From: Singulisphaera sp. GP187
GTDB lineage: Bacteria; Planctomycetota; Phycisphaerae; Phycisphaerales; SM1A02
Assembly: GCA_945869475.1 (NCBI GenBank)
Contig: CAMBOV010000005.1
Span: 62,001-126,000 of the forward strand
Direction of reading: 5' to 3'
DNA length: 64,000 nucleotides
The position numbers and the translations under genes were made by a program. The notes beneath the pieces are model-generated. The model was not told the origin of the DNA, did not search any database, and saw only the letters and a list, made by a program, of their open reading frames with translations. Shown piece after piece: positions 29,883 through 35,454 of this stretch (position 1 is the first letter of the stretch; each line of letters begins with the position of its first letter).

Positions 29883-30758
29883 ATGCGATGTCAAATCCTT
29901 GTGACTGATCTGGATGGCACACTGCTCAATCGACGGGGCGAAGTATCGCCGAGGAATCTCCAAGCGATCGACCGGGCGCGTCAGGCTGGAATTGAGGTTG
30001 TCTTCGCAACTGGGCGCTCATGGATCGAGTGCCGCTCGGTCGCGAAGTCGGCGCTTGGCTCGGGGATGACCATCACCGCTGGAGGGGCGGCGCTGCATGA
30101 GGTCGCGACTGGAACGTGTCAGGATCGCATCGTGATCCCACATGATTTGGTGGCGCATTGCACGCAGAGCCTCGTGCACCAGGGACACCTCGCGCATCTG
30201 CTCAAAGATGCAACGCGCGCTGGGTACGACTACCTGCTCGTGGGCGATGCGCAACTCGACGAGGCGAGCCGGTGGTGGTTCAGCGTGCATCCATTGCAGA
30301 CTCGTGCGGTCGCCGCACTTGCACACGATGCTGCGCTGCGCAGTGAGCAACTCGATGATGTGCTGCGGGTCGGAACGGTCGCGGTCGCGAGTGAACTCGC
30401 GCGGGTCGCTGCAACGATTCGCGCCGACGTGCCAGAGCGTCTGACGGTGAAGCACTGGCCCGCATTGGTCGCACTCGGACAGGCTGGCGTCGACACGCAC
30501 CTGCTCGAGATTTTCGACGCCGATGTCGACAAGTGGAAGATGATCGAGCGACTCTGTGCCTCGCGCGACGTCGATCCGCGCGAGGTCGTCACGATCGGAG
30601 ATGGACTCAACGACATCGGCATGTTGCAGGGATGTGAACGGTCGTATGCCGTCGCAAATGCGCAGGATGATGTGGCGCACTTCGCCAAGCGGCGGGCTCC
30701 TGACCATGACAACGATGCCTTCGCATTCGTCGTCGAGGACATTCTCAATGGACAGTAG
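29883..30758 (+). CDS. Cof-type HAD-IIB phosphatase
   Basis: This is a 291-residue haloacid-dehalogenase-family hydrolase, probably acting on a sugar phosphate. Motif I is LVTDLDGTLL with the nucleophile and acid/base Asp, motif II is FATGR, and the motif III/IV region is VVTIGDGLNDIGML. A C2B cap domain occupies about residues 80-190. The start is the first ATG after the divergent YfgM-like gene (34 bp away). Its last 11 bases overlap the start of the large IOR-like gene, indicating translational coupling. The physiological substrate is not apparent. Confidence 0.88.
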   Translation: MRCQILVTDLDGTLLNRRGEVSPRNLQAIDRARQAGIEVVFATGRSWIECRSVAKSALGSGMTITAGGAALHEVATGTCQDRIVIPHDLVAHCTQSLVHQGHLAHLLKDATRAGYDYLLVGDAQLDEASRWWFSVHPLQTRAVAALAHDAALRSEQLDDVLRVGTVAVASELARVAATIRADVPERLTVKHWPALVALGQAGVDTHLLEIFDADVDKWKMIERLCASRDVDPREVVTIGDGLNDIGMLQGCERSYAVANAQDDVAHFAKRRAPDHDNDAFAFVVEDILNGQ

Positions 30759-33700
30759 TGCGACGGCACAGGCGAACTGGACGATCCCGCTTGGGCGAGC
30801 CGATGGTCACGCGCTCTGCACAGCGTCCGAAGCGCTGCTCAAGGGTTTTCTTGAGAGTGAATTCGATGTGCATCTCATCGTGGGTGTTCGACGCGCGCCA
30901 TTTGAAGGAGTCTTCGAGGCAGCCGAAAGTGAAGCGCCACAACTCATCCTCTCGCGAAATGGACTGCGCGTGGTCGCGGCGTTCGACGCGGTTCGAGCGA
31001 TCGAACTTGCGGCGCAGGAAGCATCGCGCGGTCGCCGCGCGGTGGTGCTTCTGGCTAATGATGAACTGGATCAGGTCGTGATTGCACTCGCCGACCTCGC
31101 GCAGTCGCCCCTGGGTGACGGTGCGGGAATCTGCATCGTGCTCGAGGACAATCCCTTCGCTGTCCAGACGACCTGTCCCCGTCGCGTCTGTCGGCGCAGT
31201 GGAATCACCGCCATCGAACCGTGTGATTTACTTGGACTGCGCGATGGTTGCGACGCGGCCTTTCGCCTCTCGCGAGCGACGAGACGGCCCGCGGCATTGA
31301 TTGCGCACATCTCACTGCTGCGATCTGGCGCGACGCTAGCGATGGCTCCGAATCGTCAAGTCGCGCGGGTTGACCACGATGCGTGGCTGAGGCGCAGGCA
31401 CACGACACGCGTCGGCGACTCAGCCGATCCACTGCAGATTGTGCGTCGCCTTGAGCTCAATCGACTCGAGCATCTGCCGAGTCCTGGCGAGCGCGAGCAG
31501 TATGGATTCATCGCGCTCGGCGCGTGCGCAGTGGCCGTCCGACACATGCTTGATGAGCTCAGCATGACGGGTCGTGTTCCGTTGTTGCGCCTCACGGTAA
31601 CTGAACCACTCGACGACGCGGCAGTCGCGCGACTTCTTGAGCGGTGCCATCACGTGATCGTTGTCGAGGCGCGTCCAGGATCCGTGGCGCCGCGAATCGT
31701 TGCAATCGCTGAGTCTCTTCGGGTGAGCGAGGGCGTGCCCGCGCACGTGTGGTGGGATTCAATGCCGCCCGGCGCTGGCGATGTCGAACCGCTAGGCATC
31801 AACGACGGACTGCGCACGAGCCTTCTCACGCGGCGGGTGATTCGGCTGCTGCATGAAGTGCGTCCTGGATTGCAACTCACCGAGCGCCTCGCGCGCATTC
31901 CTCCAGGAGTGGCGACCATCGAACTTCCGCGACGAGGACTCGGCATCGGCCTCGCCGCCGGCTTTGACCTCATCGCAGCCGAGATTCGTTTAGCCGCTGA
32001 GATCATTGCGGAGCGCGCATTTGCAGATGGGATGACGCGTGCGATCGTTGGAGAGCGCGCGCGAGCGAGCACGGCCGACATCGTCTGCACGGTCGAGATG
32101 TGGGACGCCCGTCGATTTGCACGCGAAGGAACTGCACTCGTGCGGCAGGCCGCCTCAGAGCGCACTCCTCGCGTGGTTGTGGTGTGCAGTTTTTCTTCGG
32201 AATCGTCCATCGATGTCGAGCGGTTTGCACGCGCGTCGGTCGGGGTTCACGGAGAGTCGAAGTTGGCGTTTGCGCGGATCGATGTGAACGACCGCGAGGC
32301 AATGCGCGAGGCCTTTCTCACGGGCGCTGGTTCAACCGCACTCACGATCATTATTGCGCAGGATGGTCCGCCGCCACGGTTCGATGTTGCGGCACTCGAA
32401 CGTACCGCGCGGGAGATCGACCTCGACGGCTTCCTGCGATTTCAGCGGTTCATTCTTCCCGCTGACAACGCATGCGAGCTGCGCGATCCCGGTCTCGCGA
32501 CCCAGATCGCCCGTGGACTTCTGCGTGGATCGGACCCACTTCGACCTGAGCCGCTCATCGAGCGTTCGATCGTGCCAGGTGCACGTGGTCTCTTCGTTCG
32601 TCTCGAGTCACTGCTCGAGCAGGTCGAGATCATTCGAACGCGACCTCCTGCCGGCATCGACGCGCTTCGCACCTCAGTGCGCGTGACACCTCCGCGACCG
32701 GCACATGCAGACCAGGGAATCTGGCGGGTGCACATTGCGGGATTTCGCGGAGATGCTCCGGGCGCCGCAGGACAGTTGCTCGCCGAGGCCGGGCGCTCAA
32801 TGGGATTTCAAGTTGAGTGGACACACCTCGGAGTGCCGGTGGGTCCGGGTCGACGGGCCTGGTCGCAACTGCTCTTCACGCGCATGGATGAGTCGATCAC
32901 CTCCGAGAGTGCGAGTTGCACAATCCAGATTCCCTACGGAGAGGCGGATCTCGTGATTGGCATCGACCCCGTTGAAACGATTCGCGCGATCGCGACCGAT
33001 GCGCAGTTGCGCGTCGCAGATCCTGCACGCACTGCGCTCGTTGCGAACACTTCACCGCTCGAGGATCAAATCGACGAACCCACTGTTCAGTGCGCGAGTC
33101 GCCTCGCCGCGATCGCGCAGGCGACGACGCTCGCCTCTCGATGTGTGCTCATCGACATTGTTTCAGAGTCGCGGTCGATCTTTCTCAGCGATCGACAGAG
33201 TGATCTCATCGCTGTTGGGATCGCATTTCAAAGAGGATTCATCCCACTCTCGATCGACGCGCTCGAAGATTCGGCACGGCGGATGGAGGTGCGCGGATAT
33301 GCCCGCAGTTTCGAGGCGATTCAACTCGGCCGACTACTCGCGGTGCGCACGGGCGCCGGCGCGATTGAGACAGCGGGGGTCACGGCCGCAGAGCCGACCA
33401 CCGACGAGACACTGCGCCTCGCGCGACGGGTCAGCGCCGATCGCCAACTCGGTGGACGGCGCGAGCGAAGCCGAGGTCAGCGACTGCGAAAGGCCGTCGT
33501 CGCGACACTTGGGCAGTTGAGTCCGCTTGCGAGCACGCGCCACGGACGCGAGGCGATGCGCGATCTCGCAACGGCGATGCGACGATGCGAAATGTGGGGG
33601 GGATTCGACTACGCGACTCAATACGCGCAATGCATCACGGCGCTTCGCGCCGACTCGCGCACCGACGAGGGATGCGAACTCGCGCGACTCCTCACCCTAC

Positions 33701-34149
33701 CACTCGCCGAGTGTTTTCTGATTCGCGACATCTGGTATGTCGGCGCGCTCACGACGAGCCTCGACCAAAGTCACCGCATCCGCGACACGCTTGGCGTGCG
33801 TCTCGCGCGTGGCGATGAGATTCGCAGGCGCTATCTGCATCGACTCGAGGTGCGCCTTGCATCGCGCAAGTGGGTGGTCGAGTTCCGCTCGAGTGATTGG
33901 CCCGACCGCATCTTGCGGGCGACGATGCAGTTTGTTCCGCGGGGAATGCGAGGCACGATTCAGTCACGTGGTGCTCGCGAGCGGATGATCGCGTTGCTTC
34001 ACGACGCAGCGCGTGATCACGCAGGGGCTCACGCGTGGCTCGAGTTCGCTCGCCGGATGCACGACGCAGCCGTCGATGGAAGCATTCGGTCGATGACAGG
34101 CGATGAGATCGAAGAGATCGCAGTGCGCGTTGGCGCGATCCACCAGTAG
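30748..34149 (+). CDS. Degenerate fused indolepyruvate:ferredoxin oxidoreductase-like protein
   Basis: This 1,133-residue product follows the domain order of fused bacterial indolepyruvate ferredoxin oxidoreductases. An alpha-like pyrimidine-binding region (1 to about 215) includes GICIVLEDNPFAVQ. A domain-II-like segment has GFIALGACAVAVRHML and HVIVVEARPGSVAPRI. A TPP-domain-like segment contains ARIDVNDREAMREAF and ends in ALTIIIAQDGPPP. A gamma-like region starts near residue 651 (IAGFRGDAPGAAGQLLAEAG), and a C-terminal helical domain follows. No [4Fe-4S] CxxC cluster motif or CSGCPHN-type motif is present, and the usual TPP GDG motif and activating Glu are not recognisable. It may be a non-catalytic or repurposed relative. 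It overlaps the HAD gene by 11 bp. Confidence 0.7.
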   Translation: MDSSATAQANWTIPLGRADGHALCTASEALLKGFLESEFDVHLIVGVRRAPFEGVFEAAESEAPQLILSRNGLRVVAAFDAVRAIELAAQEASRGRRAVVLLANDELDQVVIALADLAQSPLGDGAGICIVLEDNPFAVQTTCPRRVCRRSGITAIEPCDLLGLRDGCDAAFRLSRATRRPAALIAHISLLRSGATLAMAPNRQVARVDHDAWLRRRHTTRVGDSADPLQIVRRLELNRLEHLPSPGEREQYGFIALGACAVAVRHMLDELSMTGRVPLLRLTVTEPLDDAAVARLLERCHHVIVVEARPGSVAPRIVAIAESLRVSEGVPAHVWWDSMPPGAGDVEPLGINDGLRTSLLTRRVIRLLHEVRPGLQLTERLARIPPGVATIELPRRGLGIGLAAGFDLIAAEIRLAAEIIAERAFADGMTRAIVGERARASTADIVCTVEMWDARRFAREGTALVRQAASERTPRVVVVCSFSSESSIDVERFARASVGVHGESKLAFARIDVNDREAMREAFLTGAGSTALTIIIAQDGPPPRFDVAALERTAREIDLDGFLRFQRFILPADNACELRDPGLATQIARGLLRGSDPLRPEPLIERSIVPGARGLFVRLESLLEQVEIIRTRPPAGIDALRTSVRVTPPRPAHADQGIWRVHIAGFRGDAPGAAGQLLAEAGRSMGFQVEWTHLGVPVGPGRRAWSQLLFTRMDESITSESASCTIQIPYGEADLVIGIDPVETIRAIATDAQLRVADPARTALVANTSPLEDQIDEPTVQCASRLAAIAQATTLASRCVLIDIVSESRSIFLSDRQSDLIAVGIAFQRGFIPLSIDALEDSARRMEVRGYARSFEAIQLGRLLAVRTGAGAIETAGVTAAEPTTDETLRLARRVSADRQLGGRRERSRGQRLRKAVVATLGQLSPLASTRHGREAMRDLATAMRRCEMWGGFDYATQYAQCITALRADSRTDEGCELARLLTLPLAECFLIRDIWYVGALTTSLDQSHRIRDTLGVRLARGDEIRRRYLHRLEVRLASRKWVVEFRSSDWPDRILRATMQFVPRGMRGTIQSRGARERMIALLHDAARDHAGAHAWLEFARRMHDAAVDGSIRSMTGDEIEEIAVRVGAIHQ

Positions 34150-34158
34150 TGCCCGTGT

Positions 34159-34197
34159 AGGTGAAAAACCTTCCCGTTTTGGGCAGTTTTTTCACCT
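34159..34197. terminator. Inverted repeat between convergent genes, possible bidirectional terminator
   Basis: AGGTGAAAAAC (34159-34169) pairs with GTTTTTTCACCT (34186-34197) with one bulged base. An inner CCC/GGG pair brackets GTTTT, and an A-run on one side and a T-run on the other would serve both strands. The right arm covers the rlmN stop codon at 34192. It separates the IOR-like gene from rlmN. Confidence 0.5.
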
Positions 34198-35454
34198 CGC
34201 CGATGGTTTCGGCGCAGACTCAGCGTCCTGCGAGCCCTGCGCCTGTTCGTGGCGCAGTTGTCCGCACGCCGCAGCGATGTCTCGCCCACGACTTGCACGA
34301 ATGTGCACGTTCACTTCACGTCCACGCAGAATGTTTTGAAATCGCAAGACATCCTCGGTCGCGGGACGTTGGTAGGGCATCCCCTTCACTTCGTTGTATC
34401 GAATGAGATTGACGTTTGCGTGAATGCGCAACGCGTGGGTCGCGAGTTCTTCGGCGTGTTCAGGACGATCGTTCACACCGCCCAGCAGGATGTACTCGAG
34501 GGTGATCTCGCGACCGGCGCGTCGAAACCACTCATCGCACGCGTCGAGTAACTCGTCGATGGTGCTGAACTCTGCCCATGGAATGATTTCGCGCCGCAGG
34601 GCATCATTGGGAGCGTGCAAGCTGAGCGCGAGAGTGACAGGAATCTCGAAGTCGCAGAACTTGCGAATCGCTGCAGGCAATCCAACGGTTGAGAGTGTGA
34701 TGCGCCGCGCGCTCACACCGAATCCCCACGGAGCATTGATCGTTCGAATCGCCGTGGTCACCGCGTCGTAGTTGGCGAGCGGTTCGCCCATCCCCATGAA
34801 AACGACGTGCGAGATCCGCTCAACTTTGGGAAGGCAGGTGAGGTGATAGACCTGCTCGATGATCTGTGCGGCGGTGAGATTGCCTTCGAACCCGCCGATT
34901 CCCGACGCACAAAATGTGCAGCGCACCGGACAGCCGAGCTGGCTCGAGATGCAGGCGGTGCGCCGATCGTCCGTGGGAATCATGACGCACTCAGTCTCCT
35001 GTCCGCGTGCGACGGCCGTGTGGCCGCTGCTGCTCGGCGCGAGCCCAAGCGCGATCTTTCGCGATGGTCGCCCCGCGTCACCACCCGCGTCACCCGTTGC
35101 ATCCCCACCCGCGTCGCCAGTTGCACCGCCCGTTGCACCGCCAACTGACTGCGCCGTCGCATCGCACGCGGCGTCGGCCTGCGCCGGTGCATCGGGCTGC
35201 TGTGCCCACGAGAGCAACATCTTGTTGGTGCCATCCGATGCCGCTTGGTGAGCGACCGTGCGCGCAGTCGTGAAGAGCATCTGCTCACTCAACTGCGCCC
35301 GAACGCCGCGTGAGAGGTTCGTCATCTGCGCCGGATCGGCAACCTTCTTGCGGTAGACCCAGTCGAAAAGTTGGTCGGTGGTGTGGCGCGGCATGCTGCG
35401 CGCGGCGATCCATGCGGACAGTGTCTCGTGATTGAGTGAGAAAAAGGAGTCCAT
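34192..35454 (-). CDS. rlmN: 23S rRNA (adenine-2503-C2)-methyltransferase
   Basis: RlmN is a radical-SAM enzyme that methylates A2503 of 23S rRNA and A37 of some tRNAs. The cluster ligands are in GCPVRCTFCASG. The two mechanistic cysteines are in RRTACISSQ and in IAAACGQLR near the C-terminus. The product is 420 residues, about 40-60 longer than usual, because residues 84-150 are a Gly-Asp-Ala-Thr-rich insertion between the N-terminal domain and the radical-SAM core, encoded by imperfect tandem repeats (35075-35152). It starts 28 bp after ispH on the same strand and is probably co-transcribed with it. Confidence 0.93.
   Translation of the reverse strand: MDSFFSLNHETLSAWIAARSMPRHTTDQLFDWVYRKKVADPAQMTNLSRGVRAQLSEQMLFTTARTVAHQAASDGTNKMLLSWAQQPDAPAQADAACDATAQSVGGATGGATGDAGGDATGDAGGDAGRPSRKIALGLAPSSSGHTAVARGQETECVMIPTDDRRTACISSQLGCPVRCTFCASGIGGFEGNLTAAQIIEQVYHLTCLPKVERISHVVFMGMGEPLANYDAVTTAIRTINAPWGFGVSARRITLSTVGLPAAIRKFCDFEIPVTLALSLHAPNDALRREIIPWAEFSTIDELLDACDEWFRRAGREITLEYILLGGVNDRPEHAEELATHALRIHANVNLIRYNEVKGMPYQRPATEDVLRFQNILRGREVNVHIRASRGRDIAAACGQLRHEQAQGSQDAESAPKPSAR
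35075..35152 (-). repeat. In-frame Gly-Asp-Ala-Thr-coding tandem repeats in rlmN
   Basis: Imperfect 12- and 15-bp units encode variants of GGATGDAGGDAT. They form the centre of an insertion absent from typical RlmN. Unit lengths are multiples of three. Confidence 0.8.

Follow-up and report, generated by a model that had tools for sequence, protein, structure and literature searches.

In the 64,000-nucleotide stretch of planctomycete DNA analyzed here (the window, whose numbering is used throughout), a plus-strand gene that begins with the ATG at position 30748 encodes a 1133-residue protein that, by its sequence, is a descendant of a fused indolepyruvate ferredoxin oxidoreductase (IOR) still intact elsewhere in the class Phycisphaerae. 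To judge from the alignments, this protein has lost both half-sites for thiamine pyrophosphate (TPP), all of the iron–sulfur (Fe-S) cysteines but one, and the glycine-rich loop of the gamma domain, and has kept its length and fold. The best explanation, to which we give an even chance, is that it is a conserved pseudoenzyme retained for binding or as a scaffold. The GTDB family of the window genome, called f1 below, is SM1A02, which passages of PMC11266412 place mainly in oxic fresh and marine waters, with genomes of about 2.8 Mb.

The loss of catalytic motifs was judged column by column against intact IORs in an alignment with 27 f1 sequences. At the activating-glutamate site, NEA (ASNEAL in locus L033) has become DAV (AFDAVR) in the window protein; the CPGCPHRDS columns read GLAAGFDLI, the HGDTGC columns are deleted, and the MGDGTFFH columns read WDARRFAR. 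The first cysteine segment now reads CELRDPGLATQIARGL and the second IVPGARGLFVRLE. In the gamma domain, the glycine-rich loop GVGGMGIG is replaced by GFRGDAPG, and the loop preceding SQ reads GPGRRAWSQ. Not one of the 27 f1 sequences shows any of the IOR motifs at the corresponding alignment positions. The elements of a TPP site (activating glutamate, CPGCPH, HGDTGC, and MGDG) are thus missing from f1, as is the Fe-S pattern CxxCxxC...C...CxxDxxC...C, of which C576 is the only cysteine left (Cys in 88% of 48 f1 sequences). The HGDTGC columns are gapped in 96–100% of the same 48 sequences. The remaining named loci were covered by string search only, and the strings CxxCPH/CxxCPY, GCPH, GDTGC, and GDIGC occur in 0 of the 66. 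GDG and CxxC strings in some f1 sequences were set aside as motifs because the homologous columns of the 27 aligned sequences show no such motif. An earlier sequence-only reading of this DNA had claimed the loss of the cluster, TPP, and activating-glutamate motifs. Column by column these losses stand, and the alignment recovers none of the TPP or cluster residues apart from C576; the claim needs amending in that this cysteine survives and that a GDG string does exist in the window protein, near residue 123 and far from the TPP site.

The kinship to fused IORs is faint in single-sequence searches and clear in profile comparisons. A Pfam scan of the window protein returns no family at E up to 10, and an intact homologue matches PF20169 at its C-terminal domain. 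Six weak NCBIfam families are found, all of fused or split IOR or a related oxidoreductase subunit. The best of them, PRK13030 for the fused IOR, has E 1.9e-14 and scores 52.4 bits, below its cut-off of 816, which an intact relative, with 454 bits, likewise fails to reach; IOR_alpha follows at E 7.5e-6. When nine f1 sequences were aligned with six intact IORs by hhalign, the match covered 1074 columns with a probability of 100% and 24% identity, a collinear, full-length homology through the alpha, PP, gamma, and DUF6537 parts that defines the fused IOR family. The window protein itself shares 24% identity with an intact relative from its own order. Compared with that family (PRK13030/PRK13029; Pfam TPP_enzyme_C, POR, and DUF6537), it is homologous along its whole length and has the same domain order and C-terminal helical domain but lacks the TPP motifs, has a single cluster cysteine, and carries altered gamma loops.

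An AlphaFold model built from the 48-sequence alignment (pLDDT 85.9, pTM 0.82) finds its best PDB matches in pyruvate:ferredoxin oxidoreductases (PFORs). Foldseek pairs it with 6cio at E 3.8e-12, with a whole-chain TM score of 0.32 at 18 Å, and VIA with 9bt4_A (Z 28.3 over 310 residues at 3.5 Å) and 7plm_A (Z 27.0 over 484 residues at 3.8 Å). Support for the fold shared with these PFORs is strongest in the PYR and transketolase-C domains; identity to the PFORs is about 10–13%, and the loss of the cofactor sites in the window protein is read from the alignment with intact IORs. Other structure searches give less. The C-terminal domain alone has no Foldseek match at E ≤ 0.001, and its best VIA match, a designed helical repeat at Z 11.2, lies within the range for unrelated helical models; these searches carry no information on function or on a new fold. 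A single-sequence PDB search with the window protein gives five matches at chance level (E 0.24–0.92); profile searches match the intact IORs to a single entry, 1yd7 (E 1.8e-7), and the f1 sequences to two TPP domains, weakly (E 0.03).

The gene is close to universal in f1. A search of 41 genomes (the window genome and 40 relatives) finds homologues in 25 of 25 f1 genomes, 24 of them nearly whole length and that of G009 cut by a contig end, with identities of 33–82%, own copy aside. Across the family, matches occur in 170 of 181 genomes, in 102 of the 104 good ones, and in 44 of 45 genera, and genomes of about 1.8–2 Mb retain the orthologue. A scan of named genomes with peptide patterns, which reaches only relatives near enough to carry those patterns, yielded 66 loci, mostly titled as planctomycete or "uncultured bacterium" metagenome-assembled genomes. 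Open frames of at least 1072 codons, stop to stop, are present in 63 of these; two copies are cut by contig ends and one, L095, is broken, with a frame of 780 codons. A few f1 matches (G603, G608, and G188) contain internal stops. Four loci titled Kuenenia, Limnohabitans, or Singulisphaera (L056, L089, L038, and L039) share the f1 gene and its synteny, and their titles are probably those of mislabelled assemblies. G129 has two places with equal scores for the motif-less form, the second possibly an assembly duplicate.

Seven of the 11 f1 genomes without a match were examined. Five (G556, G587, G612, G616, and G625) also lack clear orthologues of two genes, the adjacent HAD phosphatase gene and the syntenic rlmN, and in G566 the syntenic rlmN is missing; because these neighbors are absent too, missing contigs are suggested as the explanation in all six. 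The same absence is uninformative for the seventh, G543, because two other tested genomes of its genus (G545 and G546) lack both neighbors anyway.

No intact copy was seen beside the motif-less one in the f1 genomes searched. An intact IOR used as query finds none in the 25 f1 genomes, and in 67 matched f1 genomes, among them the single-contig genome G057, it gives only weak hits among the matches listed; judged by the best E-value of each genome, the strongest is 7e-65, where intact full-length relatives mostly score from 1e-250 to 0. A PF01558 (POR) search has no match in 24 of the 25 f1 genomes, G022 having one. The same search had no match in 4 of 4 f2 genomes and at least one match in each of the 12 genomes searched from f3–f6.

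Retention is accompanied by selection. Ratios of nonsynonymous to synonymous substitution (dN/dS, NG86) were estimated for the 30 most similar of 55 eligible orthologue pairs, which share species and in some of which dS exceeds 1. The ratio is 0.018–0.113 in 29 pairs and 0.28 in one pair with dS 0.09. In ten pairs the window gene scores 0.039–0.093, compared with 0.015–0.103 for rlmN and 0.029–0.157 for ispH; for rluD the ratio is 0.035–0.071 in nine pairs. The window gene is under strong purifying selection, at the level of neighboring housekeeping genes. With its frame unbroken and selection not relaxed, the f1 gene as a whole is not a pseudogene.

The constraint has also moved within the protein. 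Mean identity in f1 is higher for the transketolase-C (0.44) and gamma (0.42) domains than for PYR (0.33) and PP (0.31). Among 22 mostly intact proteins, five of them partly altered, the order is reversed, with PYR (0.60) and PP (0.58) above gamma (0.55) and transketolase-C (0.49); PYR, PP, and the Fe-S segment are the most conserved parts of that set. Of the positions conserved at ≥90% in 32 intact sequences, f1 has released 410, some of them barely under 90%, has kept 58, and has fixed a different residue at 18; a further 45 positions newly reach 90% in the 48 f1 sequences. Counting as f1-conserved (≥90%) every position with the same, a new, or a newly constrained residue, the ratio of conserved to released positions is 6/90 in PYR, 12/124 in PP, and 6/44 in the Fe-S segment versus 27/27 in transketolase-C, 30/36 in gamma, and 40/88 in the C-terminal part. 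The constraint once carried by the TPP and Fe-S parts thus now rests with the transketolase-C, gamma, and C-terminal helical domains. Among the 63 positions that are newly fixed or have switched residue, 19 are Arg and 6 are Glu, and those three domains contain 50 of the 63. This concentration of newly fixed, often Arg, positions suggests a shift of function and not plain decay.

On these results most of what the sequence-only reading had proposed holds. It described a 1133-residue relative of fused IOR with the alpha/beta/gamma order and the extra helical domain retained, which the hhalign match, the alignment to intact fused IORs, and the PFOR-like model all support. The frame and coordinates bear out its intact 3.4-kb frame and 11-bp overlap with the HAD gene, and the profile, structure, orthologue, and selection evidence agrees with its view that this is no obvious pseudogene. 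The checks it had suggested gave weak NCBIfam IOR matches, no Pfam match, and full-length alignment to intact IORs in the profile search; a PFOR/TPP-enzyme fold, not an unrelated one, though with poor whole-chain superposition, in the structure prediction; and strong purifying selection in dN/dS.

Intact, altered, and motif-less forms coexist in the order. More distant homologues were found by the 41-genome search in families f4, f5, and f6. The f5 sequences read, and most f6 ones, have CPGCPH, HGDTGC, and the cysteine clusters, with MGDG in most and a varied form in some. All of 20 picked full-length relatives from the class have CxGCPH, HGDxGC, and CxxCxxC, and 17 have GVGGxGxG; MGDG alone is not decisive because MGD(G/A) matched just 8 of these otherwise intact proteins. 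CPGCPH and GDTGC are present in 8 of 8 further class sequences. Motif-less proteins recur in f4 (6 of 6 sequences, that of G039 split into two frames) and in genus g45 of family f6 (4 of 4). Three other f6 sequences, L136, L137, and L138, keep the cluster cysteines and have the TPP strings CAGCPQ/QGDVGC, CPGCAH/HADDGC, and CAGCPQ/HGDAGC, respectively; they are possibly partly eroded fused IORs. In an unrooted tree, f1, f4, g45, and the intact set can each be separated from the rest by a single branch. A tree with class relatives as outgroup unites the three motif-less groups (SH-aLRT 97) beside a partly altered f6 sequence. Because one of the four outgroup rows is misplaced across the root and long-branch attraction probably plays a part, the trees do not settle one loss versus several. 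A tentative and rather doubtful extension is that a TPP/Fe-S oxidoreductase of 1,100 residues was erased wholesale and so gave rise to an f1 core protein with a new, perhaps essential function; such erasure may have occurred independently as many as three times (f1, f4, and g45). That function would perhaps be that of a scaffold gated by a ligand or of a new active site spanning the gamma and helical domains.

A homologue of an enzyme that has lost its catalytic motifs and is under selection qualifies as a pseudoenzyme, and the window protein is such a homologue; the motif comparison supports expecting no IOR chemistry of it. Motif loss, retention, selection, and fold evidence together favor the pair of options named in the sequence-only reading, a pseudoenzyme with a structural or regulatory role or an enzyme with new chemistry, and we lean toward the former. 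In such a role, the transketolase-C, gamma, and C-terminal helical domains may together serve as a body for binding. The loops with Arg that replace the glycine-rich gamma loops could bind an anion resembling CoA, a nucleotide, or a phosphate, and a protein partner could dock on the surfaces of the transketolase-C and helical domains, so that the protein would act as a regulatory or assembly scaffold. Several points weigh against this proposal. The ligand, partner, and phenotype of the scaffold are all putative. Superposition on whole PFOR chains is poor (TM score about 0.32–0.34, root-mean-square deviation 17–19 Å), and the VIA matches mostly cover residues 18–379, so the gamma and C-terminal fold, with few full-chain matches, rests more on sequence. 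Finally, the invariant residues (Arg, Asp, Glu, and His) could just as well make up a new active site.

An enzyme with new chemistry is the strongest alternative, although we consider it unlikely. A new active site of His, Arg, Glu, and Asp in the gamma and C-terminal domains could draw on H653, H662, R667, E732, D734, R809, R816, D819, R1028, and R1047, all at least 90% conserved in 48 f1 sequences that are 28–82% identical to the window protein, and several of them new relative to intact IORs. However, these conserved positions are spread in sequence across several domains, and neither a Pfam match nor a known catalytic motif recognizable by eye accompanies them.

Less probable still, though better than negligible, is a two-protein unit in which the window protein regulates or scaffolds the neighboring Cof-type HAD phosphatase. 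Ending at 30758, the HAD gene reaches 11 bp into the window gene, whose frame is open upstream as far as a GTG at 30556 within the HAD gene, and it adjoins the orthologue in 61 of 66 named loci, adjacency being kept in the 13 of these 61 where it is inverted. Adjacency alone says little, however, because the whole block from rluD to ispH is conserved: the recurrent f1 order is rluD, a TPR-like gene, HAD, the window gene, rlmN, ispH, and squalene-type genes, names other than HAD being read by eye. Two of the five loci without a HAD match, L071 and L101, begin inside the gene; the other three (L070, L080, and L092) have HAD-less upstream DNA. The HAD gene is also not beside the window gene in G057 and G545, the latter probably the same record as L070, and the window-gene orthologue is kept in G545 and G546, where the best HAD match (E about 1e-5) is too weak for a clear orthologue. 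Because some genomes keep the window gene without HAD beside it, the phosphatase is a frequent neighbor and not an obligatory partner. The coupling seen in the sequence-only reading thus holds as overlap and usual adjacency, but is weakened by the inversions and absences.

Two further alternatives fare far worse than the pseudoenzyme. Oxidoreductases of this superfamily are often multi-subunit, and a live enzyme could receive its TPP and Fe-S sites from a partner subunit; the loss of both TPP half-sites and the cluster segment in the chain itself, together with the PF01558 result in f1, makes this very improbable. A decaying relic, or an artefact of assembly or annotation, which the fast divergence of PYR and PP, the broken L095, the internal stops, and the single dN/dS of 0.28 might suggest, is scarcely credible beside the long frames, the retention even in small genomes, and the housekeeping-like dN/dS.

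Table 1. The motif-less IOR homologue, its approximate, author-set domains, and neighboring genes in the window
Feature	Positions	Strand	Remarks
Motif-less fused-IOR homologue, putative pseudoenzyme, 1133 aa	30748–34149	+	No internal stops; same-register reading of opposite strand has many stops; frame, profile, column, and structure evidence
PYR-like (alpha N-terminal) domain, residues 12–205	30781–31362	+	Activating-Glu site lost; poorly conserved in f1
Transketolase-C-like domain, residues 206–345	31363–31782	+	Best conserved part; new Arg-rich constraint
Remnant TPP diphosphate-binding (PP) domain, residues 346–560	31783–32427	+	CPGCPH and MGDG replaced; HGDTGC loop deleted
Former Fe-S cluster segment, residues 561–640	32428–32667	+	Sole remaining cysteine C576
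Gamma (POR-like) domain, residues 641–800	32668–33147	+	GVGGMGIG replaced by GFRGDAPG
C-terminal helical domain (DUF6537-like), residues 801–1125	33148–34122	+	Profile alignment, structure prediction
Cof-type HAD-IIB phosphatase	29883–30758	+	DLDGTL motif; start by eye; neighbor of window gene
RlmN-like gene	34192–35454	-	Convergent neighbor conserved in f1, syntenic marker; name by eye

The surroundings of the gene and of its relatives add some side observations. The RlmN-like protein has a repetitive Gly/Ala/Asp-rich stretch ahead of its radical-SAM part, where orthologue matches split. In all four g45 loci the motif-less IOR is followed by a fusion protein of about 1150–1200 aa, at 49–141 bp in three and about 1.2 kb in L135, where the fusion runs off the locus. 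In L133 (7764–11225, plus strand) the fusion combines a dehydrogenase E1 alpha and beta, a lipoyl domain, and a beta-ketoacyl-ACP (acyl carrier protein) synthase III (KASIII). Relatives occur in L132, L134, and L135 of g45, in L168 (G029), and in L169 (G045), the domains having been scanned in L133 only. The E1-lipoyl-KASIII fusion is possibly a one-chain acyl-primer synthase. It was rejected as a partner that would explain the f1 protein because, among the matches listed for 61 genomes, it stands in one frame only in G050, G029, and G045, all f6, and f1 matches are partial or stop-broken. A FabF-like ketosynthase gene lies divergent to an intact IOR (L031, 2060–3274, minus strand) and to a motif-less one (L134, 2148–3569, minus strand). 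This arrangement hints that IORs in f6 may serve lipid or polyketide primer synthesis. The f4 neighbors, rho and, by eye, mcsA/mcsB-like genes, give no functional hint.

Pseudoenzymes commonly occur as paralogues alongside a live enzyme. The prozyme of trypanosome S-adenosylmethionine decarboxylase, as presented in parts of PMC10211241 and PMC5201418, is likewise a dead homologue kept by the cell, but it activates a live paralogue in the same cell, whereas no live copy is seen in f1. EdcC of Novosphingobium tardaugens, from estrogen degradation, belongs to the IOR family by name and is likened here by description only; the relevant passages of PMC7793797 treat it as catalytic, the deletion mutant growing poorly on estradiol and accumulating a product of the preceding step. 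In PubMed Central, no text pairs indolepyruvate ferredoxin oxidoreductase with pseudoenzyme, and none of the listed matches for inactive enzymes or pseudoenzymes contains the term 2-oxoacid ferredoxin oxidoreductase. Pseudoenzyme with thiamine pyrophosphate finds vitamin B6 work only, Phycisphaerae with pseudoenzyme terms finds nothing on a motif-less IOR by title, and indolepyruvate or DUF6537 finds no text with DUF6537 among the matches listed. The terms indolepyruvate and ferredoxin oxidoreductase are absent from the main texts of PMC6461901 and PMC11266412.

Overall, a large redox enzyme in dead form persists in 44 of 45 f1 genera, under constraint like that on housekeeping genes and with no live copy seen, a clear case for asking what the body of a giant oxidoreductase does without its cofactors. 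With intact, partly altered, and dead forms within one order, the transition is testable. Annotation of the protein as an oxidoreductase would misstate the metabolism of f1 bacteria.

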